A stretch of 64,000 nucleotides of DNA from Echinarachnius parma (taxonomy: Eukaryota > Echinodermata > Echinoidea > Clypeasteroida > Echinarachniidae): NCBI GenBank assembly GCA_037951105.1, contig JBAMJV010001846.1, forward strand, positions 62,001-126,000, written 5' to 3'. Made by a program: the position numbers and the translations under genes. The notes under the pieces were generated by a model that was not told the DNA's origin, did no database searches, and saw only the letters and a program-made list of their open reading frames with translations. Each line of letters begins with the position of its first letter. The first letter of the stretch is position 1. Shown here in pieces: positions 24,504-62,129 of the stretch.

Positions 24504-24509
24504 CAAAAC

Positions 24510-25058
24510 AATGAACGTATTCTGGCTAATTAAAGAACAACTAATAATGAAAAAATGCTAATTACGCTTAAGTTTAGCGGGCGAAAAAAAAAAATGACTA
24601 GTCATAATGAAAAGCGCTTCTCGAAGCGCTCCCGTATACGCGTTTTATCCCATTCGAGGTACGCATTTAAAAATGATCGACATTAATTCCGTAAGAAGCA
24701 ACATGAACAAAAACATTTAACAATATAACAATGATCGTAATTAAAAGTAAGTCGTTTTATGTAATGCGCCTAACTATATGCGCTCCCAATTTTTAACGGG
24801 AAAAAAACGCGTATAACGGGAAAAAGGCGTGTATATACGCGTTTCCCCGTTCGAGGTACGCATTTAAAAATGAGCGAAATTAGTTCCGTATAAGGAAGCA
24901 ACATCGGTAAGAATTTTCACAACAAAACAATGAACGTATTCTGGCTAATTAAAAAACAAATAATAATGAAAAAATGCTAATTACGCTTAAGTCTAGCGGG
25001 CGAAAACAAAATGACTAGTCATAATGAAAAGCGCTTCTCGAAGCGCTCCCGTATACGC
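24510..25058. repeat. CpG-rich satellite modules, left edge
   Basis: Two consecutive modules carry TCTAGCGGGCGAAAA, AGCGCTTCTCGAAGCGCT, GTATACGCG and GTTCGAGGTACGCATTTAAAAATGA. They are mirrored at 51,110-51,662 and belong to the same family as the array at 51,163-55,420. Confidence 0.85.
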
Positions 25059-25081
25059 CCCCCCCCCCCCCCCCCCCCCCC
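25059..25081. repeat. Poly-C tract at module edge
   Basis: A run of ~23 C directly after GTATACG. It is mirrored as a G-run at 51,089-51,110 in the right arm with a slightly different length. Confidence 0.9.
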
Positions 25082-26480
25082 TACATACCAGACTCATTTT
25101 GCTGACGCAGACGTTCGGACCGCATCATTGCCTTGCATGTTTTTCATTTGTTTGTTTATTTTTTTCGTTTTGTCTTGGTACGTTTTTATTTGTTTACGTT
25201 GTTGCATGATTCACGGAACTTTATTTTTAACAGGTGACATAAACAAACATCTTTTGTTTTAATTTGCTTTACATTTAAATAACCCTTACCCCGTTTCATG
25301 AAACATTCTATGTGAGTTACTTTCATATCAATAGTAACTACCAGGAAATTCTCGAATTTGATTCGATGAAACCAGTACTGTCATGGAAGTTACTAGCAGA
25401 GATATTATTATATTCCTGTTTTATGGACTACCGTATTTTTTTCTATAAACTAATTTCTTATTTGCTACTTTTTGTGAAATTGAGGGTCAATTCATATATT
25501 CAGTCTTATAATTTTCAGTTGTGTTTATATTAATTTCGTCTTTGGTTCCGTTTTTGATACCGTTGATTTACCATTGGGGCCATGATATGTTCATTTGTGT
25601 AACAGTAAAGGCCCACTGGACACAACAGTGGTGTCATTGTTGTCTGGTAATGCATATTCTGAGTCATGGAAGAGGTCATCGTTATATTTCATGAGCAGCG
25701 CAAATATTCATTACCGGACATGGTTGTGGCTGTATTAGTCTCAATAAGCACAACTAGGTACATTACTGATGCAAGCCAAACGACACAAATTCCTATGTTT
25801 TATGATCGTTCTTACTAATCAACACGTTACTACTTAAACTAACATCTTTCGAATTTTGCTGCGTTGTTACTTTATACAACCATGCCCATGTTTGAGCTGA
25901 GCTGTCGTTCGACATGTCATTCACACGTACATGTAAGTTTTTTTGAATTTATATATCGGTTTTGCATGTATTCGTTAACTTTCTTACTCGTTAATCGAAT
26001 TTTAATTTGACTATACTGTCTGTTGGTACTGCATTATTCCTTTATTTTTGTTTCGTTTAGAATTGACATTGTTATTGTTAACATTTCCGTTCTTGTTATA
26101 GATTGTTCGAATCACATCTCCCATGACTAATTAGTGTTAATCTAGATCATTTATTCATGAAAATTGTTCGACATACTTGCTATTTGTGTTGATAGATTCT
26201 CTTTTGACAGAAGGAATGATCGATCATTTTACAATGTTGGTTTGAAATGTATATTTTCTGCTTGCTTTGCATATAATTGATATATGTTTATGGTTCAAAT
26301 GATGGTACACGATTACTTACGAAACTTTATAAGGAATAATCTGGATATTGTTTCATTACAAAATGTAGTGGCGTTATATTTTGAGACACCCCGTAATGTT
26401 TTGCGGCTGAGAATGCAAATTTATTTTACCTATTATCATTTTTTATGCAGAATTAACTCTAATTGCATGGAGGACGACTC
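25082..26480. other. Arm sequence without a recognised element
   Basis: AT-rich. Short open frames at 25,312-25,533 and 26,284-26,562 have noise-like composition; the latter is antisense to the end of the decayed gene described next. The mirror is 49,687-51,085. Confidence 0.4.
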
Positions 26481-27492
26481 TCATCGTTTCTTCTTTCGTA
26501 TCTTCCAGGCATCAGCGAAGTTCCACACCTTGTCATGGCGAACGGAGCGTGTAGATTGCTGACTGCTAAATCCACTACCGGATACAATCACTGACAATAT
26601 ATTTGCGTCCAAGGTGAAGACTTGAGCCCAGTCTCAGGATTTATCATCTCCTTCTGCAGCCAAATCTAGCCCGGGCAGCGCGGCCAAAACTTGCCGGGAT
26701 GGTGCTGCGAAATCAACCCCTACTGGTGCCGAACAAGAAGCTCTACGTATACCCAGCCGATCAACTGTCCACTGAATGACGAATGAACTAAATTTGAACG
26801 AATTGGAATATGGATATAATTATCATGGTAAAAATGATACTTTGGTTTTCCGGCTCAATTTTGAGATTGTGCCAACCAAATTGACAATAGGAGTAAACGA
26901 ATTCACGCGATTTGCGATCACCGTGTCGAAGCAGCATTCAAGTTCTTCAATATATCGTTTATATTGTTCAAAATCACATTTTCATCTATCATGATTATGG
27001 TAATTCAAAATTGTATGTAGTTGCTGCTGGCGCTTGTGCACATTCACGAATTTGAGTGCCCATTAAATAACTCTTGTGTCGATTCACAAAGGCGTATACT
27101 TGAGAAACATGCAAGAATTCGTGCGCATCTTTCTGGAATTTGAAAAAACGATACAAACGATCACGCGCCAATGCGTGATTTTCAATGACTTTTAATAAAT
27201 TCGGTTGATAAGAAAGTGTCAAATTGAGCTGGAAAATCAATATTATATTTATTTTTAATTCAATCTAAAATTGATATACAACTAACGAATGGGCTTTTTG
27301 TGATAGTCAAATCTATTACCGAGATGAGCTCACAATGATTTTTGTATTAATAATATTTGCATACATTACAGAAGCGGTCTTTTAGTGTAGTTGCATCTTT
27401 TTGATGTGCACACGGAACACACGTCACGCTCGGCTTCCTATGTTGAATACGATTTTGGGGGTCAAACGCAACCTTCGTTTATATTTATTCAA
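26481..27492 (-). pseudogene. Decayed gene of unknown family (left-arm copy)
   Basis: On the minus strand several protein-like reading blocks follow each other with frame breaks. (1) ~27,382-27,477 has a Cys pair (TCVPC) closely followed in another frame by a second Cys pair (FCNVC), zinc-finger-like. (2) 26,995-27,240 is 75-80 codons (…VIENHALARDRLYRFFKF…) after a TTTTCCAG acceptor-like site. (3) 26,826-26,981 is 52 codons (…RYIEELECCFDTVIANRVN…). (4) After two stops, a block in the same frame as (3) (…WTVDRLGIRRASC…) is interrupted by a single TGA and ends KIRKKKR-stop at 26,481. The composition is clearly more protein-like than the antisense frames. I do not recognise the family. The mirror copy is 48,675-49,686 (+). 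Confidence 0.35.
26806..26840. repeat. 35 bp perfect direct repeat, copy 1
   Basis: The sequence starting GAATATGGATATAATTATCA is repeated exactly at 27,645-27,679. The first copy lies between blocks 3 and 4 of the decayed gene. The arrangement could mark an intron or insertion boundary. Confidence 0.8.
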
Positions 27493-28123
27493 TAACCTAG
27501 TCTAAAGTGTAATGAATGTTATTTTGCTATTAGTTGTATTTTTATATTTCTAATTTAATTGATCAATCAATAATATGTGCAGCATTTATGTTGTTTTATA
27601 TCAAGATTAAACCTAATCATTTTTTTTAACTATAGAGAATAGTTGAATATGGATATAATTATCATGGTAAAAATGATACGTTGGTATATAAACTGAAGTA
27701 TCTTAATATTTTTTATATGATTTATTTTTAAAGTCACTATATTTTTAAAGTATTGAACTAAATCACAGAAACAGTACTAGCTATTAGGTATATTTTAGAA
27801 CAACCTGTAATCAGAGCAAGCACGATGGTAGCTGTGATGCAACACATTGTGGTCTATATTCGCCCAGACCACTGGAATGTGGCACACACAACATAACCCA
27901 GCAGGAGGTCAACCACTGACCTCCTGCATCGACCATAGCTGAGCAATGTCAGCTGTTCAGTAAATTACATCTTTACATGTATATACTGTATAATTGTCTG
28001 TAGGGAGAGATCCACTTTTGCACGCCAAAATTTAAAAGCGAGGCTATTGTCTTATATGAAAGGAAATGTCATTTAATAATAAAATGACCACTTAAGATGT
28101 TACCTTATTTTATTCTTTGTTGA
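27493..28123. other. Arm sequence; includes 35 bp direct repeat copy 2 and an 11 bp-stem hairpin
   Basis: 27,645-27,679 repeats 26,806-26,840. GCAGGAGGTCA-accac-TGACCTCCTGC at 27,901-27,927 is a perfect 11 bp stem with a 5 nt loop; its mirror is 48,241-48,267. No gene is seen. Confidence 0.6.
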
Positions 28124-28490
28124 CAGTGTTTCTCAACCTTTTTTTAACCCTATGCCCACTTTAGCTCTTTCGAATTTCATCGAGGCGCATCTTACAAAAA
28201 CATATTAGGAAACAAATTACAATAAACCAGATAATAGAAAACTGTGTGGTATAATGTCAGTTGCAATGCCAAAAAATTGTTTACATATCTTTAATGGGTC
28301 ACTTGTGTTTGCTTGTGGGAAATAAGGTCAAATCGTGGTAACATGTAACATAATATGAAAATTTGAGCTATGGTCAATTAGAATGAGAGACGTCTCATTT
28401 TGGGGTTTTTTCGCGGCCCATTTTCGCGGCCCACCTGAAAGAGGTCCGCAGCCCACCAGTGGGCCGCGCACCGCTGGTTGAGAAACACTG
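28124..28490. mobile_element. hAT-like MITE (left-arm copy)
   Basis: The termini CAGTGTTTCTCAACC and GGTTGAGAAACACTG are exact 15 bp inverse complements. CAGTG-TTCTCAACC ends are characteristic of hAT-family non-autonomous elements. The 8 bp flanks do not match, so no target duplication is visible. There is no transposase frame. Confidence 0.75.
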
Positions 28491-29215
28491 TATTAAAGCA
28501 AACATAATTGTTTTAGATGAAATTGCTAATAAGGATCTATTCTCTGTCCAAATAATGAGTATCTGTTTTGCATTGGACTTTCATATGTGCCGCTATAAAG
28601 AATTGATAAGTTTCTTTTTGAGCTCGATGTATTACAAATGGTTGGGTTTATGCATATTTACGTTTTATGATCAGATTTCGATCGAATAAAGTACACACAA
28701 AAAAACTACCCCTCACGTAAAATGTGTATATGTTTATTAACCGAACACAAACGGTAACTTCCCGGCCCATAATTTCATAACCGATTATTGTTTCAATACG
28801 TCATCTTGGCACAATATTGGCACAGTTGTTAGGTTAAATGTGCGAAAATCAGAGATTTTCATTACTTTCTGGTATAATGAGCACAAATTGACAAAATGGC
28901 CCAATTCAGAAGCCACAAGGTATTATACGTGCCTGTACATTGTTGTGAATCCGTATGTGGCGGAATACATTGATCATGGCTTATTGATATTTCATTCATT
29001 TTGATTTTGTGATGGCACATGTTTTATAATGCATTAGTTGCAATTGTAAAACAGTGTATTTTTTAAAAATTTCCAACTATTCATAATTTGTAATGATGAT
29101 AGTTTTTTGCGCTTTTGAAATATGACTATTTCTTCTGTAACGTGTGCTCACTAAACCATGGATTAATGGTTACCTCTTACGTTAACACATCGTTTTCCTA
29201 ATGCTATGGTCACAA
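28491..29215. other. Arm sequence without a recognised element
   Basis: AT-rich; no gene supported. The mirror is 46,950-47,677. Confidence 0.35.
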
Positions 29216-29583
29216 CCCCTAAAAGTAGCCTGCTCGGCGGCCGGGCGGCGAGTTTTTTAGCCAAAATCGCTCGGTCACCCAGCGGCTGCCACCCAGGCAC
29301 CGCTGGTTTTTAGGCATCGCTCGGTCGCCGCTGAAGTTTTAGCGCGGAGTTAAAATTTGGGCGGCGCCTGCTCACTTTTCACTCGCCGCCCATAATACTC
29401 TCGGTGGCCGAGCGGTCGCCGCCCGGGCACCGACCTAATCGAGCGGTCACCGTCGGGCGATTTAAATAAAAAAATATGTCAAATAAGCCATCGGCTGACG
29501 GATGGTCGCCGTCCGGTCACCGCTGGGAGATCAGTCGGTCACCGGGCGGCGACCGCTCGGCAGCCGATGACCCATTTGACCTA
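29216..29583. repeat. GC-rich block of CGGCGACCG-type inverted motifs
   Basis: About 365 bp dense in the motif GGCGACCGCTCGG and its inverse (CTCGGTCGCCG, GCGGTCACCG). Its last 103 bp (29,478-29,580) are bounded by GTCAAATAAGCCATCGGCTG and the near inverse CAGCCGATGACCCATTTGAC. GC content contrasts sharply with the AT-rich flanks. Probably a non-autonomous foldback element; not recognised. Confidence 0.6.
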
Positions 29584-30120
29584 TACAGGGTGCCCCCCCC
29601 CCCCCCAAAAAAAAAACGGAACGGGGCACCTCCCAAATAAAATAACACACGTTTTATGTCCATCGGATAGAGTGTCTTTTCAAATGAACAACGATACCAA
29701 GAACAGTCAATTTGGTCATGTAGTTTTTGTTTTAGGACCCTGTGAGTGACACCATGTCAGGTTACTTTTTTTTGACATTTGTTATTAAGCCACCGCGTGA
29801 TGAATTGCACGAACCGCCTCTCATATCGTTGAGCATCGCGCACTATTGTTAGTGTGCACTCAGCCGTGTGCCGAGAGAATGGGCCTGCTCGCTGAATGGT
29901 ATTACGGGCAAGGCGTGCAGTTAAACTGGCATTGACTATGTCGAAATCGACACCTGACATGGTCTCACTCACGGCGTCCTTTAACAAAAACTACCTGACC
30001 AAAATTATTGTTCTTGGTATTGTTTTTCATTGGAAAGGACACCCTATCTGATGAACATAAACATTATGGTATCATATTTTGGGAAGTGCCCCGTTCCGTT
30101 CTTTTTTGGGCCACCCTGTA
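29584..30120. mobile_element. Mariner-like MITE with TA flanks (left-arm copy)
   Basis: TA|CAGGGTG … CACCCTG|TA termini with long imperfect inverted ends. GGAACGGGGCAC, ACCAAGAACA, GTAGTTTTTGTT and CATGTCAGGT occur on both sides. CAGGGTG ends and TA duplication fit Tc1/mariner elements. A 76-codon minus-strand frame (29,757-29,987) fills the centre but shows no DDE/D motif. The left terminus is interrupted by a C/A homopolymer. Confidence 0.7.
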
Positions 30121-30929
30121 TTTTACCTAAATCGAGCATTGTTTGGAAAATAGGCGCTCCACAAAAAAGTGTGTGTATGTGTGCGCGCCTGTCTTTGTGT
30201 GTGTGAGTGTGTGTCTGTGTGTGCGTGTGTGCGTGTGTGTGTCTGTGTGACTTTCAGATGCAAAGGTATCTAGAAAATGTGTTAAACATGCATACTTGTT
30301 TTGTAAGTTGATTCATATTCTGTTCGCATACACACACGAACACACACACATACACACTCACACATCCATAATGCGAGTCTATGTTTAATCATATGTTTAC
30401 TCTTTCATGTACCAACGCAATATATGTGCTTTAAAAATTAATGTAAAAACGGCCCAAGTCCTTAATTCTAAAAACAAGTTTGGGCTAAAAAAGTTTCCTA
30501 TCTACGTCACTAAAATATGACACCGTACTTAAGTGATAGGTGAGTTTTGTTGCAATGATTTATTGTTCGATAATGAAAAACTAAGTGAAAATTTTGTTAA
30601 TAACACAATATTTGAATGACCGAATAAACTTCATTTTATCAAACTTTTATCAGAAACAACTGAAATATCCATAATCATAATCATTTGCAGTACATGTGGA
30701 TTATGTTTAAAAAACTTATTAATGTAATTTTGAACCAGCCTTTAACAAAAATGCTTCCTCTTCTTCAAAAAGTAACAAAATGGGTATTTAAAGGTATAGT
30801 CGAGTTTTTGGTAAAGAGAGTAAACTTTTTGTAAAAATGAATTATGGTAACCAAAGCCTGCACCACTTAAATACAAATGAACAGTGAAACTATACTTATC
30901 CTTAAAAGGAATTTAAATTCACAAACGAC
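30121..30929. other. Arm sequence with GT/CA microsatellites
   Basis: GT-rich microsatellite at ~30,167-30,248 and CA-rich at ~30,329-30,362. The remainder is AT-rich with no gene. The mirror is 45,235-46,044. Confidence 0.6.
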
Positions 30930-31760
30930 TGAGTAAAGAGCCTGTAAACATTCAAACAGAAGTGTTAATGATAAAGATGGCGCTCTGTTTTAACGCGTTA
31001 ATAAACTGAATAAGTTAAGTATTTAACTCGAAAATACGCGTTTAACGAGATTGTACGCTCGGAGAGCCGGGTAGGAGTATATAATATGGAGAGATGGCCT
31101 TGCTGTTAACAGGTAAGCGTACCCGTACATGTCATGGAAATGTGACGACACTGCAACATACATGTATGATACCCAAATAGATTTATTTAATAAGATTATG
31201 TACATGTATGTTTACAGGCTGTTCATAGTTATATGTATTGCACTGAATGATAGAGGGAAAATGATTAACTGTTAATCCCGGTCTGTACCACTGACCTCCA
31301 CTCGGTGGTCTGTACGAACGCCCGGCCCAGAATCCACCACTTCTCAATTGCTCCATTGCTGCCCATCGTCGCTCCTTACACCGGTTACGACCATCTGTCA
31401 GGCTACATGACGAAATTTAGCCCGAGTAATGTTCTCGTGTGCTCTTTTCGTGAGCCTCTGCTCACCGTTCATGTTCTTGCCTGTGTTTCTTTTTAATAAT
31501 TATTGTTTTAGCCTTAGCCCACACTCTCAAAGATTGGGGGGAATATAGAGTTGTGGCATGGTACTATTATCTTTCTTTTATTGCGTTGTCATTAGCTGAT
31601 GATAGAGTACCCAACCCACTCTAGATACCAATAGGAGATTATATAGGTCAGGGTGGTGTGGTGACACTGCAACATGTGGTCTTTATGTATAGTATTTTAT
31701 ACTGTTATGACATGGCGTTGGGGGTATAGGCACGGAATATAACACCCCGAGGGATTTTAA
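30930..31760 (+). mobile_element. Degenerate LTR-retroelement remnant (left-arm copy)
   Basis: 30,985-31,240 is a diverged inverse copy of the 495 bp satellite monomer (TTAACGCGTTAATAAACTGAATAAG, AATACGCGTTTAACGAGATTG, GACACTGCAACAT). 31,400-31,620 matches, in order, the 3' end of the pol at 39,700-39,990 read on its own strand: CTGTCAGGCTACA, GTGCTCTTT, GTTCATGTTC, TTTAGCCTT, CTCTCAAAGA-TGGGG and TCTTTCTTTTATTGCG. A second GACACTGCAACAT lies at ~31,664. The layout suggests two LTR-like ends around an internally deleted body. A TATA-like TATATAATATGG (31,078) and a donor-like AGGTAAGC (31,110) are present. Confidence 0.5.
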
Positions 31761-32200
31761 ATGCTATCGAGGGAAGAGTTTAATAAATAAGTATCTTCTT
31801 CACGAAATAGCATTTGAAATCCCGAGAGTGGGAATATTCCGTCCTGTACCCGACAACAAATGTAATAACGGTTTATCGTATGACTGACAAAATCGTTTGC
31901 AACTCACTCATAAACATAATATGTACAGAAGCTACAATCATCACACACATGCTGCAGAATTCATGTGCCGAACAGTCGATCGGCGTACTTGTTGAAGTAA
32001 GGTATTGAAACGTCATTACGCGCGTAACTCGCCGTGATTAGCGCGTTCACGCTCGAAATATAATGTTTCGCGCTTAATAGTGCCATGGTATAATTTATTA
32101 TACTGATTATAACACCCCATCTGCCTGTACTATATTTACTAAGTCATGTGATAAACATGTATAGTCAAGATAAGGTTATAAGAAGATGTATGTTAACAAA
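31761..32200. other. Arm sequence, LTR-adjacent, unclassified
   Basis: Contains ACGCGCGTAA, GCGCGTTCACGCTCGAAA and other CpG motifs, but no module or gene. The mirror is 43,964-44,403. Confidence 0.35.
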
Positions 32201-33686
32201 CTGTTCATAACGCGAATAACGCGAATATAATGGAAATATACGCGTCATACGCGATGGCATGTCTCAGAGAAAAAACTATGGGAGAGTTCGACTTGTTGCT
32301 ATGGAAGCGCATTGATACATAGGCGCATTTCATTGTCACGACTTGTTTATTATTTTTAAATGCGTACCTCGAACGCGTAAAAACGCGTATACATGTACAT
32401 AATTATACGCATTATTTTTTTGTTAATTATTATGTATGTCATGTAATTTCCATCATTTTTAATGCGTACCTTGAACGCGTAAAAACGTGTATACATATAC
32501 GCATTATTCTCTTTCTTTTATTGCGTTGTCATTAGCTGATGATAGCTACTATGTTCGCAGACGTATAGATTATAAGAGGCCAATGTGCGCAGAGGTTATA
32601 GGTACGCATTTCAAAATTAGTTCCGTAAGGAAGCAAAATTGGTAAGAATATTTCACAATCAAACAATGTTCGTAGTTCCGCGTATTTGATAAGTCTAGCG
32701 CCTAGCGGGCGAAAACAAATAAGTAGTCACAAAATAAAGAGCGCTTATCAAAGCGCTCTCGTATACGCGTTTTCCGTTCGAGGTATATTATACGATTTAA
32801 AAAATGATCGAAATCAATTCCGTAAGGAAGCGAATTAAATAAAAAACATTTCACAAAACAATGATCGAATTAACGCCTTTTAAATAAATTTGGCGTACGA
32901 AACTGTTCATAACGCGAATAACGCGAATATAATGGAAATATACGCGTCATACGCGATGGCATAATATCTCAGAGAGAAAACTATGGGAGAGTTCGACTTG
33001 TTGCTATGGAAGCGCATTGAAACATAGGCGCATTTCATTGTCACGACTTGTTTATTATTTTTAAATGCGTACCTCGAACGCGTAAAAACGCGTATACATA
33101 ATTATACGCATTATTTTTTTTTCATTATTATGTATGTCATGTAATTTCCATCATTTTTAAATGCGTACCTTGAACGCGTAAAAACGTGTATACATATACG
33201 CATTATGGTACTATTCTCTTTCTTTTATTGCGTTATCATTAGCTGATGATAGCTACGATGTTGGCAGACGTAGATTATAAGAGGCCAAGGTGCGCAGAGG
33301 TTATAGGTACGCATTTCAAAATTAGTTCCGTAAGGAAGCAAAATCGGTAAGAACATTTCACAATCAAACAATGTTCGTAGTTCCGCGTATTTGATAAGTC
33401 TAGCGCCAAGCGGGCGAAAACAAATAAGTAGTCACAAAATAAAGAGCGCTTATCAAAGCGCTCTCGTATACGCGTTTTCCGTTCGAGGTATATTATACGA
33501 TTTAAAAAATGATCGAAATCAATTCCGTAAGGAAGCGATTTAAATAAAAACATTTCACAAAACAATGATCGAATTAACGCCTTTTAAATAAATTTGTCGT
33601 ACGAAACTGTTCATAACGCGAATAACGCGAATATAATGGAAATATACGCGTCATACGCGATGGCATAATATCTCAGAGAGAAAACT
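32201..33686. repeat. Two tandem 702-704 bp satellite/LTR composite units plus a partial third
   Basis: CTGTTCATAACGCGAATAACG starts at 32,201, 32,903 and 33,607. Each unit contains module blocks (GCGGGCGAAAACAAATAAGTAG, AGCGCTTATCAAAGCGCT, GTTCGAGGTA) plus a TTCTCTTTCTTTTATTGCGTT-TCATTAGCTGATGATAG block that is also found after pol. The third copy stops after ~80 bp at a junction with pol (33,686/33,687). The right arm has only one full copy. Confidence 0.85.
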
Positions 33687-34190
33687 TTCCCCACCATCGG
33701 TGAGACAGCCGGGCCTGGCAGCTCCAGCGTCGCGTCCTCTGTCACCTCCTCGACCCAACGCCGGCAGCCTGCATCACACCCGCATGCCAGTGCCCCAGAC
33801 GCCAGGTGCCACCGCCCCCTCCCACGGCCCCCCCCCCCCCCCCCCCCCCCATTTCCAGCCACCGAGGAGAACCGGGAGAAGCTGGAGGCATGGCTGCTGA
33901 AACATTACAACTCAAGCACTTTCAATGTGTGCGAGCACCAACTGCTCCCTATGATGGATGGCCCCCCCTGCGACTCATGGTAGACCCTACTGCTCTGCCC
34001 ATTGCCTATCACACCCCCATCCCTGTCCCTGTCCACTGGCAGGACGATGTCAAGGCAGGCCTCGACCGTGATGTCCGCCTCGGCGTCATTGAGCCCGTCC
34101 CCGTCGGCACGCCTGTCACATGGTGCCACAAGATGGTGATCTGCCCCAAGAAGTCAGGACAGCCCAGACGGACAGTCGACCTCCAGTCAA
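33687..34190 (+). pseudogene. pol: 5' fragment of Ty3/gypsy-like pol, truncated by the arm end
   Basis: This is the same sequence as the first ~165 codons of the pol at 40,790-43,168, in the opposite direction. It covers the proline-rich leader and the start of the reverse transcriptase fingers region (…KMVICPKKSGQPRRTVDLQS). It then breaks off at 34,190 into unrelated AC-rich sequence. The C-homopolymer at 33,828-33,850 is 23 nt here against 22 nt in the other copy, which by itself shifts the frame. It cannot encode a polymerase. Confidence 0.85.
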
Positions 34191-34640
34191 CAACAACAAT
34201 AAAACAATAAAATACATAAGAATGAAAACAATTTGGATAAATCCAGGAATACTAATTTGCATATTTATGCAAATTAGTGATATATTTTATCACCATAAAA
34301 AACATGGATATGATGAATGACATCATTTGAAAGTATTTTTACAGAAAACCTGAAGAAATCCTGTCATTTCTTTTGATTTTAGATGAAAATCCCAATTTTT
34401 CCCAAAATCGTCAAAAATTTGCATATTCAAAATTTTAATTAATTATAAAAAAAAAATAATGGTCCAATTTTTTTTATTTTCAAATTCTTATTCTACACTA
34501 CTTGTTTTACGTGTGTGCCAAATTTCGAGTCGATCGGTCCATTCATTGCCGAGATTTGAGGGGGGGGGGGCCTAAAAGGCCCCCCCCCCCCCCCCCCCCG
34601 TGGACTCAAGTGACGAAAATAACCCAGTGGGATTAGGGTT
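34191..34640. other. AT-rich spacer sequence with an octamer palindrome and G/C homopolymers
   Basis: Begins CAACAACAAT at the arm junction. 34,251-34,278 is a 13 bp-arm inverted repeat holding ATTTGCAT and ATGCAAAT. 34,560-34,600 is a G-run, a short spacer, then a C-run. The phrase AAATTTCGAGTCGATCGG and its surroundings look like part of an interspersed repeat, not identified. Confidence 0.5.
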
Positions 34641-34985
34641 AAGGAGCTTTTGCATTGTTTTAATTAAAACTGTGCAATCTGAGCGATGTTGTCGGTCAAT
34701 TACAAAAGATGTTACAATAAAGATTTCTGTTACATTATTTTAAACAACGTTATACGTGTTACCTGTTATTTACTTGTATCCAAAAGTAAACCTCATAAAT
34801 GCCCGCTGTAAAAGCTGACGCATATTTCCGTTTTTTAACCAGGAAAGCAGCGTTCTATTTCAATGAAACTTTTACACATTCGGACATATTTTTCAAATGA
34901 TTTTGCTACAAGATTGAAGTCTCAAATGTCAACTTGGGCAATATCTGACACTTTACATGACGAAAAACAAATTAGTAATTATTTT
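34641..34985. other. AT-rich spacer sequence, unclassified
   Basis: No repeat module or gene visible before the satellite modules start. Confidence 0.3.
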
Positions 34986-40797: not shown

Positions 40798-43168
40798 GCC
40801 TGCAGTGGAAGAAAGTGCGTGTGGCCCCTGCAGTGAACTCTGGGCCACCATCCGTCGACAGCTCAGCACTGATCCCGTACGTCACAAAGATGCGGCGTAA
40901 TGCAGCAACAAGGCCGCTGGCGCCGTTGGCCGCCTGTTCGACGATCGGCCAGTTGCTGTACCTATCCACTACCACGAGATAGTGACATCCCCGGTAGGTG
41001 AAGTAGTCAGCGGCGATGCAGTGGAAAGGGTAATCGGGCTGGATGGGAGGCGTGGGTGGCGCGCCTGGCTGGGATGGTGCCATGCGGTTACACGGGGAGC
41101 AGCGTGCTCGTACATCAGCGATGGCAGGGGTCATGCCAGGCCAGAAGAAGGAGGACTGGGCTCGTGAACACATCATGGTGACGCTCTGGTGGGCCGAGTG
41201 CAGGGCCTCAAGGACTCTGGTACGGAGGGATGGGGGGATGATGACACGGTCATTGTAGAGGCATACACCATCGAACTCGGACAGGTTCGCACGGAACTGG
41301 TGGTATGGCCGGAGGTCACGGGGGAGGTCACTAGTGAGTGCGGGGAAGCCCCCTTGTATCATCTCAACCAGTCTGCACATAGAGGGATCACTGGAGGTAG
41401 CGAGGCAGACATCGTCCCAGGTGACCGACCTGATCACCGCAGGGGGAGTGCAGACTTGGACGGGGTCCGGGCTGCTAGCTCGGATGGCAGGGAGGAAGTC
41501 GTGCGTGTTGCAGAGCACGGGTGCAATATCATCAGGGAGCAGTAGGGGTGCACCCGTGCCGACAGGGTGGCGGGACACGCCATCAGCAGCTGCGTGGCGC
41601 ACACCAGGTACATGGATGATGCGGAAGCGGTACCGCAGTGACTTCTCCTTGAGGTTGCGGAGGCGAGGGTTAGGGATGTCCTCGAGTGAGCGGTCACCAA
41701 ACACTTTCAGGAGGGGCTTGTGGTCCACCGCGACGATGTGGTCAGAGCAGCCAAGAACAAAATGGCGAGCCTTGTCGAGTGCGTCGATAACAGCAAGGGC
41801 CTCCCCTTCAACCGGGGCGTAGCGGGACTCGGCACCGGAGGTGAAGCGGCTCCCAACCAGGGTCACCCTCCAACCGGTCTTACAGCAGAAGGGTTTGGAG
41901 GAGGGGCAGGTGCAGTGTTTCTGGAGCAGCCAGAATCCCAGACCATCCTTGCTCCAATCAGTAGCTAGGCAGGTCGGTTTGTTCTTGTCAAATATCTCCA
42001 CCCCGGTGTGGATCTCGTTGACGATGTGGGCCTTGGAGTCCTCAAACAGGCGGTCCAGCTCGTCAGTCCATGAGAAGGGGGTGCCAGGCTTGAGGAGTTG
42101 GCGGAAGGGCAACATGCGGTCGGTCATGGCGAAGGCGTATGAGACCTGGTTGATGAGCCCAAAGCAGCTGCGCACATCTGTGATGTTGCGAGGCGTGGGG
42201 AAGTTCTGGATCGCCTCAAGGTACTCGGGGCAGGGGCGGACCGAGGTCGGGGTGATTTCAAAGCCAGCAAATTTTACAGTCTGCCGAGCAAATGCGAACT
42301 TTGTGGGGTTCAGGATGATGCCATGTTTGCCGCAAGTGTCAAGCCACTCAACTGCCTGGTGGAAGGCCTCTTCGATGGAGTCTGACCATATCAGGGTGTC
42401 ATCCACGCACTTCGTCTTCTTCGGGATGTCAGACACAATCTCATCAAAGCGGCGGCTGTAGCCATCACCGGAGGCGATGTACCCCTGTGGAGCGACACAA
42501 TAGCGGTAGCGGCCCCAAGGTGTGATGAAAGTCGTGAGGTGGCGGTCCTCGGCTAGGGCGATGCTGTGGTAGCCGTTCCATGCATCGAACACAGTCTTGC
42601 AAGTCTGCGGAGGAACTGCACGCGCTTGATGAAACGGCGACTGTGTGTGGTGGGTCTCACGGACGGCATGGCGGTTGATTGACTGGAGGTCGACTGTCCG
42701 TCTGGGCTGTCCTGACTTCTTGGGGCAGATCACCATCTTGTGGCACCATGTGACAGGCGTGCCGACGGGGACGGGCTCAATGACGCCGAGGCGGACATCA
42801 CGGTCGAGGCCTGCCTTGACATCGTCCTGCCAGTGGACAGGGACAGGGATGGGGGTGTGATAGGCAATGGGCCGAGCAGTAGGGTCTACCATGAGTCGCA
42901 GGGGGGGCCATCCATCATAGGGAGCAGTTGGTGCTCGCACACATTGAAAGTGCTTGAGTTGTAATGTTTCAGCAGCCATGCCTCCAGCTTCTCCCGGTTC
43001 TCCTCGGTGGCTGGAAATGGGGGGGGGGGGGGGGGGGGGGCCGTGGGAGGGGGCGGTGGCACCTGGCGTCTGGGGCACTGGCATGCGGGTGTGATGCAGG
43101 CTGCCGGCGTTGGGTCGAGGAGGTGACAGAGGACGCGACGCTGGAGCTGCCAGGCCCGGCTGTCTCAC
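40790..43168 (-). pseudogene. pol: Ty3/gypsy-like pol: reverse transcriptase, RNase H, truncated integrase
   Basis: 792 codons. Residues 1-63 are a Pro-rich leader (polyproline from a 22 nt C-run). RT spans ~110-345, with D195 (VFDAWNGYH) and the active-site CVDD at 254-257, a variant of YVDD. RNase H spans ~395-535, with D404 (ATDWSKDG), E456 (VEGEALAV), D482 (VDHKPL) and D529 (AAADGVSR). The integrase zinc-binding pair is H657/H660 and C690/C693; core D721 (AADYF) and D773 (STDGGPEF) follow. The frame ends at 792, before the third catalytic acid expected ~35 residues after D773. Order RT-RNH-IN is the Ty3/gypsy type. Gag and protease are missing: the sequence joins satellite directly at 43,182. 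RT and RNase H look intact, integrase is defective, so the copy is non-autonomous at best. Confidence 0.9.
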
Positions 43169-43181
43169 CGATGGTGGGGAA

Positions 43182-43963
43182 AGTTTTCTCTCTGAGATAT
43201 TATGCCATCGCGTATGACGCGTATATTTCCATTATATTCGCGTTATTCGCGTTATGAACAGTTTCGTACGCCAAATTTATTTAAAAGGCGTTAATTCGAT
43301 CATTGTTTTGTGAAATGTTTTTTATTTAATTCGCTTCCTTACGGAATTGATTTCGATCATTTTTTAAATCGTATAATATACCTCGAACGGAAAACGCGTA
43401 TACGAGAGCGCTTTGATAAGCGCTCTTTATTTTGTGACTACTTATTTGTTTTCGCCCGCTAGGCGCTAGACTTATCAAATACGCGGAACTACGAACATTG
43501 TTTGATTGTGAAATATTCTTACCAATTTTGCTTCCTTACGGAACTAATTTTGAAATGCGTACCTATAACCTCTGCGCACATTGGCCTCTTATAATCTATA
43601 CGTCTGCGAACATAGTAGCTATCATCAGCTAATGACAACGCAATAAAAGAAAGAGAATAATGCGTATATGTATACACGTTTTTACGCGTTCAAGGTACGC
43701 ATTAAAAATGATGGAAATTACATGACATACATAATAATTAACAAAAAAATAATGCGTATAATTATGTACATGTATACGCGTTTTTACGCGTTCGAGGTAC
43801 GCATTTAAAAATAATAAACAAGTCGTGACAATGAAATGCGCCTATGTATCAATGCGCTTCCATAGCAACAAGTCGAACTCTCCCATAGTTTTTTCTCTGA
43901 GACATGCCATCGCGTATGACGCGTATATTTCCATTATATTCGCGTTATTCGCGTTATGAACAG
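43182..43963. repeat. Single 702 bp satellite/LTR composite unit plus partial copy (right arm)
   Basis: Mirror of 32,201-33,686. CGTTATTCGCGTTATGAACAG ends at 43,261 and again at 43,963. Confidence 0.85.
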
Positions 43964-44403
43964 TTTGTTAACATACATCTTCTTATAACCTTATCTTGAC
44001 TATACATGTTTATCACATGACTTAGTAAATATAGTACAGGCAGATGGGGTGTTATAATCAGTATAATAAATTATACCATGGCACTATTAAGCGCGAAACA
44101 TTATATTTCGAGCGTGAACGCGCTAATCACGGCGAGTTACGCGCGTAATGACGTTTCAATACCTTACTTCAACAAGTACGCCGATCGACTGTTCGGCACA
44201 TGAATTCTGCAGCATGTGTGTGATGATTGTAGCTTCTGTACATATTATGTTTATGAGTGAGTTGCAAACGATTTTGTCAGTCATACGATAAACCGTTATT
44301 ACATTTGTTGTCGGGTACAGGACGGAATATTCCCACTCTCGGGATTTCAAATGCTATTTCGTGAAGAAGATACTTATTTATTAAACTCTTCCCTCGATAG
44401 CAT
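43964..44403. other. Mirror of 31,761-32,200
   Basis: Same unclassified CpG-containing sequence, inverted. Confidence 0.5.
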
Positions 44404-45234
44404 TTAAAATCCCTCGGGGTGTTATATTCCGTGCCTATACCCCCAACGCCATGTCATAACAGTATAAAATACTATACATAAAGACCACATGTTGCAGTGT
44501 CACCACACCACCCTGACCTATATAATCTCCTATTGGTATCTAGAGTGGGTTGGGTACTCTATCATCAGCTAATGACAACGCAATAAAAGAAAGATAATAG
44601 TACCATGCCACAACTCTATATTCCCCCCAATCTTTGAGAGTGTGGGCTAAGGCTAAAACAATAATTATTAAAAAGAAACACAGGCAAGAACATGAACGGT
44701 GAGCAGAGGCTCACGAAAAGAGCACACGAGAACATTACTCGGGCTAAATTTCGTCATGTAGCCTGACAGATGGTCGTAACCGGTGTAAGGAGCGACGATG
44801 GGCAGCAATGGAGCAATTGAGAAGTGGTGGATTCTGGGCCGGGCGTTCGTACAGACCACCGAGTGGAGGTCAGTGGTACAGACCGGGATTAACAGTTAAT
44901 CATTTTCCCTCTATCATTCAGTGCAATACATATAACTATGAACAGCCTGTAAACATACATGTACATAATCTTATTAAATAAATCTATTTGGGTATCATAC
45001 ATGTATGTTGCAGTGTCGTCACATTTCCATGACATGTACGGGTACGCTTACCTGTTAACAGCAAGGCCATCTCTCCATATTATATACTCCTACCCGGCTC
45101 TCCGAGCGTACAATCTCGTTAAACGCGTATTTTCGAGTTAAATACTTAACTTATTCAGTTTATTAACGCGTTAAAACAGAGCGCCATCTTTATCATTAAC
45201 ACTTCTGTTTGAATGTTTACAGGCTCTTTACTCA
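44404..45234 (-). mobile_element. Degenerate LTR-retroelement remnant (right-arm copy)
   Basis: Inverse copy of 30,930-31,760. The pol 3'-end similarity lies at ~44,540-44,765 and the satellite-monomer similarity at ~44,925-45,180. Confidence 0.5.
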
Positions 45235-46044
45235 GTCGTTTGTGAATTTAAATTCCTTTTAAGGATAAGTATAGTTTCACTGTTCATTTGTATTTAAGTG
45301 GTGCAGGCTTTGGTTACCATAATTCATTTTTACAAAAAGTTTACTCTCTTTACCAAAAACTCGACTATACCTTTAAATACCCATTTTGTTACTTTTTGAA
45401 GAAGAGGAAGCATTTTTGTTAAAGGCTGGTTCAAAATTACATTAATAAGTTTTTTAAACATAATCCACATGTACTGCAAATGATTATGATTATGGATATT
45501 TCAGTTGTTTCTGATAAAAGTTTGATAAAATGAAGTTTATTCGGTCATTAAAATATTGTGTTATTAACAAAATTTTCACTTAGTTTTTCATTATCGAACA
45601 ATAAATCATTGCAACAAAACTCACCTATCACTTAAGTACGGTGTCATATTTTAGTGACGTAGATAGGAAACTTTTTTAGCCCAAACTTGTTTTTAGAATT
45701 AAGGACTTGGGCCGTTTTTACAAATTAATTTTTAAAGCACATATATTGCGTTGGTACATGAAAGAGTAAACATATGATTAAACATAGACTCGCATTATGG
45801 ATGTGTGAGTGTGTATGTGTGTGTGTTCGTGTGTGTATGCGAACAGAATATGAATCAACTTACAAAACAAGTATGCATGTTTAACACATTTTCTAGATAC
45901 CTTTGCATCTGAAAGTCACACAGACACACACACGCACACACGCACACACAGACACACACTCACACACACAAAGACAGGCGCGCACACATACACACACTTT
46001 TTTGTGGAGCGCCTATTTCCAAACAATGCTCGATTTAGGTAAAA
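45235..46044. other. Mirror of 30,121-30,929 with CA/GT microsatellites
   Basis: CA-rich at ~45,916-45,997 and GT-rich at ~45,802-45,836. One 2 bp indel near 45,722 and one substitution near 45,550 distinguish it from the left arm. Confidence 0.6.
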
Positions 46045-46584
46045 TACAGGGTGGCCCAAAAAAGAACGGAACGGGGCACTTCCCAAAATATGATACCATA
46101 ATGTTTATGTTCATCAGATAGGGTGTCCTTTCCAATGAAAAACAATACCAAGAACAATAATTTTGGTCAGGTAGTTTTTGTTAAAGGACGCCGTGAGTGA
46201 GACCATGTCAGGTGTCGATTTCGACATAGTCAATGCCAGTTTAACTGCACGCCTTGCCCGTAATACCATTCAGCGAGCAGGCCCATTCTCTCGGCACACG
46301 GCTGAGTGCACACTAACAATAGTGCGCGATGCTCAACGATATGAGAGGCGGTTCGTGCAATTCATCACGCGGTGGCTTAATAACAAATGTCAAAAAAAAG
46401 TAACCTGACATGGTGTCACTCACAGGGTCCTAAAACAAAAACTACATGACCAAATTGACTGTTCTTGGTATCGTTGTTCATTTGAAAAGACACTCTATCC
46501 GATGGACATAAAACGTGTGTTATTTTATTTGGGAGGTGCCCCGTTCCGTTTTTTTTTTTGGGGGGGGGGGGGAGCCACCCTGTA
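46045..46584. mobile_element. Mariner-like MITE with TA flanks (right-arm copy)
   Basis: TA|CAGGGTGGCCCAAAAAAG at the start and CCACCCTG|TA at the end. Here the G-run near the second terminus is 12-13 nt with TTTTTTTTT beside it. A 76-codon plus-strand frame at 46,178-46,408 matches the left-arm frame exactly, but no transposase motif is seen. Confidence 0.7.
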
Positions 46585-46949
46585 TAGGTCAAATGGGTCA
46601 TCGGCTGCCGAGCGGTCGCCGCCCGGTGACCGACTGATCTCCCAGCGGTGACCGGACGGCGACCGCTCGTCAGCCGATGGCTTATTTGACATATTTTTTT
46701 ATTTAAATCGCCCGACGGTGACCGCTCGATTAGGTCGGTGCCCGGGCGGCGACCGCTCGGCCACCGAGAGTATTATGGGCGGCGAGTGAAAAGTGAGCAG
46801 GCGCCGCCCAAATTTTAACTCCGCGCTAAAACTTCAGCGGCGACCGAGCGATGCCTAAAAACCAGCGGTGCCTGGGTGGCAGCCGCTGGGTGACCGAGCG
46901 ATTTTGGCTAAAAAACTCGCCGCCCGGCCGCCGAGCAGGCTACTTTTAG
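46585..46949. repeat. GC-rich inverted-motif block (right-arm copy)
   Basis: Mirror of 29,216-29,583, with the same GGCGACCGCTCGG motifs. Confidence 0.6.
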
Positions 46950-47677
46950 GGGTTGTGACCATAGCATTAGGAAAACGATGTGTTAAAGTAAGAGGTAACC
47001 ATTAATCCATGGTTTAGTGAGCACACGTTACAGAAGAAATAGTCATATTTCAAAAGCGCAAAAAACTATCATCATTACAAATTATGAATAGTTGGAAATT
47101 TTTAAAAAATACACTGTTTTACAATTGCAACTAATGCATTATAAAACATGTGCCATCACAAAATCAAAATGAATGAAATATCAATAAGCCATGATCAATG
47201 TATTCCGCCACATACGGATTCACAACAATGTACAGGCACGTATAATACCTTGTGGCTTCTGAATTGGGCCATTTTGTCAATTTGTGCTCATTATACCAGA
47301 AAGTAATGAAAATCTCTGATTTTCGCACATTTAACCTAACAACTGTGCCAATATTGTGCCAAGATGACGTATTGAAACAATAATCGGTTATGAAATTATA
47401 GGCCGGGAAGTTACCGTTTGTGTTCGGTTAATAAACATATACACATTTTACGTGAGGGGTAGTTTTTTTGTGTGTACTTTATTCGATCGAAATCTGATCA
47501 TAAAACGTAAATATGCATAAACCCAACCATTTGTAATACATCGAGCTCAAAAAGAAACTTATCAATTCTTTATAGCGGCACATATGAAAGTCCAATGCAA
47601 AACAGATACTCATTATTTGGACAGAGAATAGATCCTTATTAGCAATTTCATCTAAAACAATTATGTTTGCTTTAATA
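46950..47677. other. Mirror of 28,491-29,215, no recognised element
   Basis: A single substitution near 47,400 (TATAGGCCGGG) separates it from the left arm. Confidence 0.4.
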
Positions 47678-48044
47678 CAGTGTTTCTCAACCAGCGGTGC
47701 GCGGCCCACTGGTGGGCTGCGGACCTCTTTCAGGTGGGCCGCGAAAATGGGCCGCGAAAAACCCCCAAAATGAGACGTCTCTCATTCTAATTGACCATAG
47801 CTCAAATTTTCATATTATGTTACATGTTACCACGATTTGACCTTATTTCCCACAAGCAAACACAAGTGACCCATTAAAGATATGTAAACAATTTTTTGGC
47901 ATTGCAACTGACATTATACCACACAGTTTTCTATTATCTGGTTTATTGTAATTTGTTTCCTAATATGTTTTTGTAAGATGCGCCTCGATGAAATTCGAAA
48001 GAGCTAAAGTGGGCATAGGGTTAAAAAAAGGTTGAGAAACACTG
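47678..48044. mobile_element. hAT-like MITE (right-arm copy)
   Basis: CAGTGTTTCTCAACC … GGTTGAGAAACACTG, inverse copy of 28,124-28,490. Confidence 0.75.
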
Positions 48045-48674
48045 TCAACAAAGAATAAAATAAGGTAACATCTTAAGTGGTCATTTTATTATTAAATGAC
48101 ATTTCCTTTCATATAAGACAATAGCCTCGCTTTTAAATTTTGGCGTGCAAAAGTGGATCTCTCCCTACAGACAATTATACAGTATATACATGTAAAGATG
48201 TAATTTACTGAACAGCTGACATTGCTCAGCTATGGTCGATGCAGGAGGTCAGTGGTTGACCTCCTGCTGGGTTATGTTGTGTGTGCCACATTCCAGTGGT
48301 CTGGGCGAATATAGACCACAATGTGTTGCATCACAGCTACCATCGTGCTTGCTCTGATTACAGGTTGTTCTAAAATATACCTAATAGCTAGTACTGTTTC
48401 TGTGATTTAGTTCAATACTTTAAAAATATAGTGACTTTAAAAATAAATCATATAAAAAATATTAAGATACTGCAGTTTATATACCAACGTATCATTTTTA
48501 CCATGATAATTATATCCATATTCAACTATTCTCTATAGTTAAAAAAAATGATTAGGTTTAATCTTGATATAAAACAACATAAATGCTGCACATATTATTG
48601 ATTGATCAATTAAATTAGAAATATAAACATACAACTAATAGCAAAATAACATTCATTACACTTTAGACTAGGTT
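48045..48674. other. Mirror of 27,493-28,123
   Basis: Contains the GCAGGAGGTCA hairpin at 48,241-48,267 and one copy of the 35 bp direct repeat at ~48,488-48,522. Confidence 0.6.
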
Positions 48675-49686
48675 ATTGAATAAATATAAACGAAGGTTGC
48701 GTTTGACCCCCAAAATCGTATTCAACATAGGAAGCCGAGCGTGACGTGTGTTCCGTGTGCACATCAAAAAGATGCACTACACTAAAAGACCGCTTCTGTA
48801 ATGTATGCAAATATTATTAATACAAAAATCATTGTGAGCTCATCTCGGTAATAGATTTGACTATCACAAAAAGCCCATTCGTTAGTTGTATATCAATTTT
48901 AGATTGAATTAAAAATAAATATAATATTGATTTTCCAGCTCAATTTGACACTTTCTTATCAACCGAATTTATTAAAAGTCATTGAAAATCACGCATTGGC
49001 GCGTGATCGTTTGTATCGTTTTTTCAAATTCCAGAAAGATGCGCACGAATTCTTGCATGTTTCTCAAGTATACGCCTTTGTGAATCGACACAAGAGTTAT
49101 TTAATGGGCACTCAAATTCGTGAATGTGCACAAGTGCCAGCAGCAACTACATACAATTTTGAATTACCATAATCATGATAGATGAAAATGTGATTTTGAA
49201 CAATATAAACGATATATTGAAGAACTTGAATGCTGCTTCGACACGGTGATCGCAAATCGCGTGAATTCGTTTACTCCTATTGTCAATTTGGTTGGCACAA
49301 TCTCAAAATTGAGCCGGAAAACCAAAGTATCATTTTTACCATGATAATTATATCCATATTCCAATTCGTTCAAATTTAGTTCATTCGTCATTCAGTGGAC
49401 AGTTGATCGGCTGGGTATACGTAGAGCTTCTTGTTCGGCACCAGTAGGGGTTGATTTCGCAGCACCATCCCGGCAAGTTTTGGCCGCGCTGCCCGGGCTA
49501 GATTTGGCTGCAGAAGGAGATGATAAATCCTGAGACTGGGCTCAAGTCTTCACCTTGGACGCAAATATATTGTCAGTGATTGTATCCGGTAGTGGATTTA
49601 GCAGTCAGCAATCTACACGCTCCGTTCGCCATGACAAGGTGTGGAACTTCGCTGATGCCTGGAAGATACGAAAGAAGAAACGATGA
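48675..49686 (+). pseudogene. Decayed gene of unknown family (right-arm copy)
   Basis: This gives the clearest view of the reading blocks: 48,690-48,782 (…RKPSVTCVPCAHQKD…), 48,773-48,817 in another frame (…KDRFCNVCKYY), 48,927-49,169 after TTTTCCAG, 49,186-49,341 (…EELECCFDTVIANRVNSF…) and 49,348-49,683 in the same frame as the previous block, with TGA TAA before it and one internal TGA at 49,477. One substitution (Ala to Val near 49,134) distinguishes it from the left copy. The two Cys pairs suggest a small zinc-binding segment. Family not recognised; an old coding sequence caught in the duplicated segment is the inference. Confidence 0.35.
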
Positions 49687-51088
49687 GAGTCGTCCTCCAT
49701 GCAATTAGAGTTAATTCTGCATAAAAAATGATAATAGGTAAAATAAATTTGCATTCTCAGCCGCAAAACATTACGGGGTGTCTCAAAATATAACGCCACT
49801 ACATTTTGTAATGAAACAATATCCAGATTATTCCTTATAAAGTTTCGTAAGTAATCGTGTACCATCATTTGAACCATAAACATATATCAATTATATGCAA
49901 AGCAAGCAGAAAATATACATTTCAAACCAACATTGTAAAATGATCGATCATTCCTTCTGTCAAAAGAGAATCTATCAACACAAATAGCAAGTATGTCGAA
50001 CAATTTTCATGAATAAATGATCTAGATTAACACTAATTAGTCATGGGAGATGTGATTCGAACAATCTATAACAAGAACGGAAATGTTAACAATAACAATG
50101 TCAATTCTAAACGAAACAAAAATAAAGGAATAATGCAGTACCAACAGACAGTATAGTCAAATGAAAATTCGATTAACGAGTAAGAAAGTTAACGAATACA
50201 TGCAAAACCGATATATAAATTCAAAAAAACTTACATGTACGTGTGAATGACATGTCGAACGACAGCTCAGCTCAAACATGGGCATGGTTGTATAAAGTAA
50301 CAACGCAGCAAAATTCGAAAGATGTTAGTTTAAGTAGTAACGTGTTGATTAGTAAGAACGATCATAAAACATAGGAATTTGTGTCGTTTGGCTTGCATCA
50401 GTAATGTACCTAGTTGTGCTTATTGAGACTAATACAGCCACAACCATGTCCGGTAATGAATATTTGCGCTGCTCATGAAATATAACGATGACCTCTTCCA
50501 TGACTCAGAATATGCATTACCAGACAACAATGACACCACTGTTGTGTCCAGTGGGCCTTTACTGTTACACAAATGAACATATCATGGCCCCAATGGTAAA
50601 TCAACGGTATCAAAAACGGAATCAAAGACGAAATTAATATAAACACAACTGAAAATTATAAGACTGAATATATGAATTGACCCTCAATTTCACAAAAAAT
50701 AGCAAATAAGAAATTAGTTTATAGAAAAAAATACGGTAGTCCATAAAACAGGAATATAATAATATCTCTGCTAGTAACTACCATGACAGTACTGGTTTCA
50801 TCGAATCAAATTCGAGAATTTCCTGGTAGTTACTATTGATATGAAAGTAACTCACATAGAATGTTTCATGAAACGGGGTAAGGGTTATTTAAATGTAAAG
50901 CAAATTAAAACAAAAGATGTTTGTTTATGTCACCTGTTAAAAATAAAGTTCCGTGAATCATGCAACAACGTAAACAAATAAAAACGTACCAAGACAAAAC
51001 GAAAAAAATAAACAAACAAATGAAAAACATGCAAGGCAATGATGCGGTCCGAACGTCTGCGTCAGCAAAATGAGTCTGGTATGTAGGC
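49687..51088. other. Mirror of 25,082-26,480
   Basis: No recognised element. 50,840-51,055 also matches 23,811-24,000 in direct orientation at lower similarity. Confidence 0.4.
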
Positions 51089-51110
51089 GGGGGGGGGGGG
51101 GGGGGGGGGG

Positions 51111-51580
51111 GCGTATACGGGAGCGCTTCGAGAAGCGCTTTTCATTATGACTAGTCATTTTGTTTTCGCCCGCTAGACTTAAGCGTAATTAGCATTTTTT
51201 CATTATTATTTGTTTTTTAATTAGCCAGAATACGTTCATTGTTTTGTTGTGAAAATTCTTACCGATGTTGCTTCCTTATACGGAACTAATTTCGCTCATT
51301 TTTAAATGCGTACCTCGAACGGGGAAACGCGTATATACACGCCTTTTTCCCGTTATACGCGTTTTTTCCCGTTAAAAATTGGGAGCGCATATAGTTAGGC
51401 GCATTACATAAAACGACTTACTTTTAATTACGATCATTGTTATATTGTTAAATGTTTTTGTTCATGTTGCTTCTTACGGAATTAATGTCGATCATTTTTA
51501 AATGCGTACCTCGAATGGGATAAAACGCGTATACGGGAGCGCTTCGAGAAGCGCTTTTCATTATGACTAGTCATTTTTTT
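51111..51580. repeat. Full-length satellite unit(s), ~416 bp, inner flank of array
   Basis: From TTCGCCCGCT at 51,165 to the next at 51,581. The unit has two related halves: one with the near-palindrome AGCGCTTCGAGAAGCGCT, one with GGGAGCGCATATAGTTAGGCGC in its place. Both carry AATGCGTACCTCGAACGGG-type blocks. Confidence 0.85.
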
Positions 51581-53131
51581 TTCGCCCGCTAGACTTAAGC
51601 GTAATTAGCATTTTTTCATTATTAGTTGTTCTTTAATTAGCCAGAATACGTTCATTGTTTTGTTGTGAAAATTCTTACCGATGTTGCTTCCTTATACGGA
51701 ACTAATTTCGCTCATTTTTAAATGCGTACCTCGAACGGGGAAACGCGTATATACACGCCTTTTTCCCGTTATACGCGTTTTTTCCCGTTAAAAATTGGGA
51801 GCGCATAAAGTTAGGCGCATTACATAACAACGACTTACTTTTAATTACGATCATTGTTATATTGTTAAATGTTTTTGTTCATGTTGCTTTTTCGCCCGCT
51901 AGACTTAAGCGTAATTAGCATTTTTTCATTATTAGTTGTTCTTTAATTAGCCAGAATACGTTCATTGTTTTGTTGTGAAAATTCTTACCGATGTTGCTTC
52001 CTTATACGGAACTAATTTCGCTCATTTTTAAATGCGTACCTCGAACGGGGAAACGCGTATATACACGCCTTTTTCCCGTTATACGCGTTTTTTTCCCGTT
52101 AAAAATTGGGAGCGCATATAGTTAGGCGCATTACATACCAACGACTTACTTTTAATTACGATCATTGTTATATTGTTAAATGTTTTTGTTCATGTTGCTT
52201 TTTCGCCCGCTAGACTTAAGCGTAATTAGCATTTTTTCATTATTAGTTGTTCTTTAATTAGCCAGAATACGTTCATTGTTTTGTTGTGAAAATTCTTACC
52301 GATGTTGCTTCCTTATACGGAACTAATTTCGCTCATTTTTAAATGCGTACCTCGAACGGGGAAACGCGTATATACACGCCTTTTTCCCGTTATACGCGTT
52401 TTTTCCCGTTAAAAATTGGGAGCGCATATAGTTAGGCGCATTACATAACAACGACTTACTTTTAATTACGATCATTGTTATATTGTTAAATGTTTTTGTT
52501 CATGTTGCTTTTTCGCCCGCTAGACTTAAGCGTAATTAGCATTTTTTCATTATTAGTTGTTCTTTAATTAGCCAGAATACGTTCATTGTTTTGTTGTGAA
52601 AATTCTTACCGATGTTGCTTCCTTATACGGAACTAATTTCGCTCATTTTTAAATGCGTACCTCGAACGGGGAAACGCGTATATACACGCCTTTTTCCCGT
52701 TATACGCGTTTTTTCCCGTTAAAAATTGGGAGCGCATATAGTTAGGCGCATTACATAACAACGACTTACTTTTAATTACGATCATTGTTATATTGTTAAA
52801 TGTTTTTGTTCATGTTGCTTTTTCGCCCGCTAGACTTAAGCGTAATTAGCATTTTTTCATTATTAGTTGTTCTTTAATTAGCCAGAATACGTTCATTGTT
52901 TTGTTGTGAAAATTCTTACCGATGTTGCTTCCTTATACGGAACTAATTTCGCTCATTTTTAAATGCGTACCTCGAACGGGGAAACGCGTATATACACGCC
53001 TTTTTCCCGTTATACGCGTTTTTTCCCGTTAAAAATTGGGAGCGCATATAGTTAGGCGCATTACATAACAACGACTTACTTTTAATTACGATCATTGTTA
53101 TATTGTTAAATGTTTTTGTTCATGTTGCTTT
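51581..53131. repeat. Homogenised tandem array, five 310 bp units
   Basis: TTCGCCCGCTAGACTTAAGCG starts at 51,581, 51,891, 52,202, 52,512, 52,822 and 53,132 (periods 310, 311, 310, 310, 310). Units are almost identical. Compared with the 416 bp unit they lack a ~106 bp block (ACGGAATTAATGTCG through the AGCGCTTC hairpin), joined at GTTGCTT|TTTCGCCC. Confidence 0.95.
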
Positions 53132-59739: not shown

Positions 59740-59807
59740 ACCTTGGTGCAATAGATCGGTGCGAGCGCATCGCCTTGAACAAGTAGACCGCGTTACAAGG
59801 TAACGGG

Positions 59808-62120: not shown

Positions 62121-62129
62121 TACACAGAT

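Follow-up and report, generated by a model that had tools for sequence, protein, structure and literature searches.

The window, that is the whole stretch of 64,000 bases analysed, most likely harbors a spaced inverted segmental duplication of recent origin, which is embedded in repeat-rich DNA and for which the right arm would have served as donor. The reading draws on the near-identity of the two arms, the truncation of the left arm on either side, the unbroken course of the right copy, and the presence of one tandem unit fewer on the right. The window is free of N and has a G+C content of 38% according to base counts, and only 17 open reading frames (ORFs) of at least 100 amino acids are found in it. 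The DNA is probably eukaryotic, as suggested by this small number of ORFs together with the lack of tRNA predictions, the Ty3-type pol, and the many tandem repeats. The features of relevance are as follows.

24504..34190, plus strand: left arm, taken as the derived inverted copy; 9,687 bp, the match to the donor stopping sharply at both edges
24503..24506, no strand: left-arm outer junction; CAA opens the arm and likewise the sequence at 34191
32198..32982, plus strand: tandem unit c1 of the left arm, identical to the single right-arm unit 43182-43966
32900..33686, plus strand: tandem unit c2, left arm only, source of the 704-bp length difference
33700..34190, plus strand: left-arm copy of the pol ORF, comprising its first ~490 bp and truncated inside codon 164
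34188..34200, no strand: left-arm inner junction (34190/34191), situated in a CAA run; the arm ends with CAA
34191..42678, no strand: spacer of 8,488 bp with AT-rich DNA, a 494-bp tandem array, and the remainder of a Ty3-type pol
36045..39605, no strand: 494-bp tandem array in the spacer, 7.2 copies
39925..40869, minus strand: ORF overlapping and then following the pol ORF in another frame, no Pfam match
40790..43168, minus strand: Ty3-type pol ORF of 792 amino acids with reverse transcriptase, RNase H, and integrase zinc-binding domain, from Pfam and structure match
42679..51662, minus strand: right arm, taken as the donor copy; 8,984 bp, the pol ORF continuing past the inner edge and the 310-bp array past the outer edge
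51578..53440, no strand: 310-bp tandem array crossing the outer edge of the right arm, 6.0 copies

Upon BLASTN comparison of the window with its own reverse strand, positions 24504-32982 match 51662-43182 over 8,486 columns at 99.67% identity, and positions 32900-34190 match 43966-42679 over 1,301 columns at 97.16% identity. Global alignment of the arms yields 8,960 matches, 17 substitutions (8 of them transitions), and nine indels, one of which spans 704 bp, while the other eight comprise 1-3 bp each; five of these eight lie within or border on homopolymer runs of at least seven. The substitution divergence of the arms is 0.19% (17 in 8,977 aligned positions; 95% confidence interval 0.11-0.30%). 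This similarity is far beyond chance, and two inverted copies of high identity and more than 1 kb, as would be expected for a spaced inverted segmental duplication, are present. The longest substitution-free stretch between the arms extends over 2,678 bp; with three neighboring substitutions counted as one event, the probability of such a stretch under even scatter of 15 events is 0.077, and the test thus gives no significant indication of gene conversion between the arms.

Both the BLASTN comparison and the global alignment bear out the large inverted repeat noted in a preliminary description of this DNA, and the arm identity estimated there at more than 99% amounts to 99.8% by substitutions over 8,977 positions. 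The mirrored coordinate sum of 76,164-76,168 given for the entire arms holds out to approximately 32,982, but not further in, where it is ~76,869 (e.g., 33996+42873); an extra tandem copy of 704 bp in the left arm shifts the sum from ~76,166 to this value in the inner 1.2 kb. Scattered substitutions, a 2-bp indel, and homopolymer differences were mentioned there; the 704-bp block had been missed, and the small indels of 1-3 bp are now found to number eight. Termed a "giant palindrome" in that description, the structure has an 8,488-bp spacer that is not mirrored, so that it is a spaced inverted repeat and not a continuous palindrome. The spacer as a whole has no second copy within the window.

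The length difference resides in c1 and c2, which are overlapping tandem units of ~0.7 kb, 95.6% alike, while the right arm has one such unit. At all 35 columns in which the three units differ (13 substitutions and 7 indels as counted from the column list), the right unit agrees with c1. Between c1 and c2, 13 differences are found in ~775 ungapped columns; this divergence of 1.7% is about nine times that of the arms, and c2 is, therefore, most simply regarded as older than the arm split. Two units would most simply represent the older state, with c2 probably predating the duplication and being absent from the right arm. It would have been lost from there later on through recombination between the two tandem units; alternatively, the allele now seen on the right may be a donor allele that is devoid of c2. 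c2 might also have been brought into the left arm from elsewhere.

Donor and copy can be distinguished by their edges. The inner edge of the right arm at 42679 falls within codon 164 of the 792-amino acid pol ORF, and reverse transcriptase similarity crosses this position, codon 164 being located inside both the RVT_1 domain (residues 149-305) and the Ty3 match (residues 143-534). In the left copy, pol ends at 34190 and is followed by AT-rich DNA. The right outer edge at 51662 is located inside the 310-bp tandem array, which continues to 53440, while the match on the left ends at 24504. Since the right arm is continuous through both edges and the left arm is cut at both, the former would be the donor and the latter the derived inverted copy. 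The sequences flanking the left arm are ...AAATGAAG on the outer and CAACAACAATAAAAC... on the inner side. If these flanks are modelled as once contiguous, the outer junction displays a 3-bp microhomology, CAA, and the inner junction 0 bp; at the latter, the CAA at the arm end lies beside the CAA run, which leaves as many as 3 bp ambiguous. Microhomology of at least 3 bp arises by chance in 6.3% of 100,000 random pairs, and given this rate and the 0 bp at the inner junction, support for a particular mechanism is weak. The junctions fit template switching or end joining and prove neither. According to the scenario proposed, the segment 42679-51662, or an allele of it, would have been copied and placed in inverted orientation ~8.5 kb away between 24503 and 34191, perhaps by replicative template switching or inverted templated insertion at the CAA run. 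Arm-like sequence is also found in the left flank, where 23815-23978 is 80.6% like 25148-25310, and in the spacer, where 35622-35726 is 89.6% like 24592-24694, both inverted; these stretches are not collinear with the duplication and are taken as dispersed repeats.

In its layout, the duplication looks like the fold-back-type inverted duplications of humans. For the human cases, all 21 of the sequenced junctions are reported to have a spacer that is not duplicated and measures 766-70,466 bp; they comprise 3 with LINE/SINE homology, 13 with inverted microhomology of 2-8 bp, and 5 with insertions (PMC3907307). Inverted copies and a spacer without a second copy, here within the window, are common to both systems, and the 8,488 bp found here are within the human range (PMC3907307). 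Unlike the human cases described there, no telomere, translocation, or terminal deletion is visible, and the copy is ~9 kb long, with its outer end within the contig. A fold-back event would be expected to show at least 2 bp of inverted microhomology, or longer homology, at the spacer-inversion junction and an outer end at a telomere or translocation (PMC3907307); under the empty-site model, 0 bp are found here at the inner junction, apart from the ambiguous CAA. With the near-identical inverted repeats of Caenorhabditis, the present pair shares arms in the kilobase range (one of 2,207 bp in Caenorhabditis) and an identity of more than 99% (PMC1803023). The Caenorhabditis cases described there carry genes, have their arms only 126 and 414 bp apart, and are also present in related species (PMC1803023), whereas here the spacer is long and no gene was found in the arms except for the pol piece.

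The strongest competitor, although itself rather unlikely, is an assembly artefact, with the left arm being the copy of the right-arm locus from the other haplotype, or from a chimeric read, that was wrongly placed in inverted orientation. Alleles would also be compatible with 0.19% of substitutions and with small indels, five out of eight at homopolymers; the arms moreover differ in tandem-unit number, and such differences are common between alleles. Two false joins would be required, however, namely at 24503/24504 and at 34190/34191, where a simple head-to-head join gives only one, and a window devoid of N contains no marked gap. The need for two false joins renders a haplotype-joining artefact less likely by reasoning, not by data. 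From the two readings offered in the preliminary description, a recent inverted duplication is upheld by the near-identical arms, of which only the left one is cut at both ends, while the head-to-head haplotypes are disfavored by this reasoning. The statement made there that one molecule had not simply been read twice agrees with the unmirrored 8.5-kb spacer, the 17 substitutions, and the 704-bp difference. A missed hairpin adapter or a fold-back read yields arms without an unmirrored spacer of 8.5 kb and would not produce the 704-bp difference either.

It is improbable that the arms are the remnant of a longer spacer-poor palindrome of the fold-back, breakage-fusion, or ODIRA type, whose center and outer end were rearranged later. 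In a published model for local inverted copy-number variants, the starting point is an inverted triplication whose palindromic junctions are unstable, and secondary rearrangement of these palindromes lengthens the spacer (PMC10766186). In the present case, the spacer directly continues the pol of the right arm, so that the right inner edge shows no rearrangement, and no third arm copy is found in the window beyond short satellite-like matches.

The pol ORF scores above the Pfam cut-off for RVT_1, RT_RNaseH, RT_RNaseH_2, and Integrase_H2C2, while the integrase core model rve remains below it. Its best match among solved structures is Ty3-G Gag-Pol (E 5.6e-33). The ORF at 39925-40869 probably represents the C-terminal part of pol after a frameshift. 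Reverse transcriptase, RNase H, and integrase zinc-binding domains are features shared with the pol of Ty3-type LTR retrotransposons, from which the sequence differs in that gag and protease had no Pfam match in the two pol ORFs or in the left arm (six-frame, E 0.01) and that no LTR-sized direct repeat was detected between 39300-40100 and 42900-44500, the top match covering 35 columns. The arrangement of an intact Ty3-type retrotransposon, with gag, protease, reverse transcriptase, RNase H, and integrase flanked by two LTRs, is thus not present. Judged from its sequence, pol is incomplete and is a passenger located where arm and spacer adjoin. Besides the pol piece, no genes were found in the arms.

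A mobile element inserted twice, in opposite orientations and with element ends coinciding with arm ends, would account for near-identical copies that carry repeat-derived sequence; such an origin is nevertheless highly improbable. One arm end interrupts reverse transcriptase-coding sequence, the other falls within a satellite unit, and the right copy is continuous with its surroundings on both sides, which argues against a bounded insertion. CAA is present at both ends in the donor as well and, hence, does not indicate a target-site duplication, and the left arm yielded no match to any Pfam family and, consequently, none to a transposase model. Neither a bounded element nor a target-site duplication, as they would typify a transposon with long inverted ends, is thus seen.

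Hardly any weight is given to a functional inverted pair that would be maintained, e.g., by providing hairpin RNA from which small RNAs directed against the Ty3-type element are made: 490 bp of pol are indeed present in both arms in opposite orientation, and siRNA-making hairpin-RNA loci are described for Drosophila simulans (PMC10317233), but the spacer is 8.5 kb long, the pol piece accounts for little of the arm, and recent age alone would account for the identity. A putative young hairpin-RNA locus, in which a transcribed pair would give rise to small RNAs silencing the Ty3-type element or the carried satellites, is equally far-fetched.

The DNA in which the duplication resides is rich in other repeats. 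A related satellite family is, as judged from sequence similarity, spread through the region; a 28-letter pattern of this family occurs 9 times in the window when as many as 3 mismatches are tolerated. A GCGCTTC-GAAGCGC hairpin motif and other stretches are common to arrays or single copies at 24504-25058, 35014-35920, and 51111-54823. The 494-bp spacer array (36045-39605) is ~85% like a single arm stretch at 30987-31269, in inverted orientation. Among the 27 rows of the tandem-repeat listing of the window, 4 are dinucleotide runs; more short tandem duplications are located in the left flank at 9824-10574, 12092-12769, 15725-17084, and 17933-18492. Outside the arms, 23262-23659 and 56466-56854 form an inverted repeat of ~400 bp, 90% alike and with TTAAAGGGA-type inverted ends, which resembles a small DNA transposon of the non-autonomous kind present in two copies; with a coordinate sum of 80,116, this pair is not part of the duplication. 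Within the arm, a unit of ~500 bp at 29593-30107 has inverted ends of ~155 bp (83% alike) with ACAGGGTG-type tips, and we take it to resemble a mariner-like miniature element. The AT-rich DNA further contains 16 runs of at least nine C or G, 15 of which are 13-24 long (a count made without shuffle control), at 14541, 21182, 21403, 24444, 25058, 29593, 33828, 34560, 34580, 39779, 43019, 46560, 51089, 60372, 61667, and 61816. The run at 43019 is inside the pol ORF and that at 33828 inside its left copy, while those at 25058 and 29593 adjoin repeat borders.

Six-frame Pfam scans covered the left arm, 1-24503, and 54000-63990; for 34191-42678, Pfam comparison was confined to the two pol ORFs. In the left arm, the six-frame scans returned no family at E 0.01 and missed even the 490-bp pol piece, which contains little of the reverse transcriptase domain. 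In 1-24503 and 54000-63990 (E 0.05), two weak matches below the curated cut-offs, CTV_P13 (E 0.031) and Ribosomal_S27e (E 0.0049), were the only ones obtained. ARAGORN predicted no tRNA in the window, and no Rfam family reached its gathering score there; a sigma-70 type scan has no bearing on DNA of such kind. The pattern search for related loci gave no match in viral contigs or phages and 7 pattern matches in genome contigs, none of which was confirmed as a relative, and the 28-letter satellite pattern had no exact match in viral or genome contigs. As the collections searched consist of viruses and prokaryotes, these misses say little about eukaryotic DNA.

Summarizing, neither a real duplication nor an artefact would alter the general view, the duplication being a fairly ordinary one. 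If artificial, the structure would be a warning for the assembly of repeat-rich genomes; if real, it would be a young duplication in which the breakpoints can be read and donor and copy are clearly told apart, and would thus provide one data point on how such inverted structures are formed.
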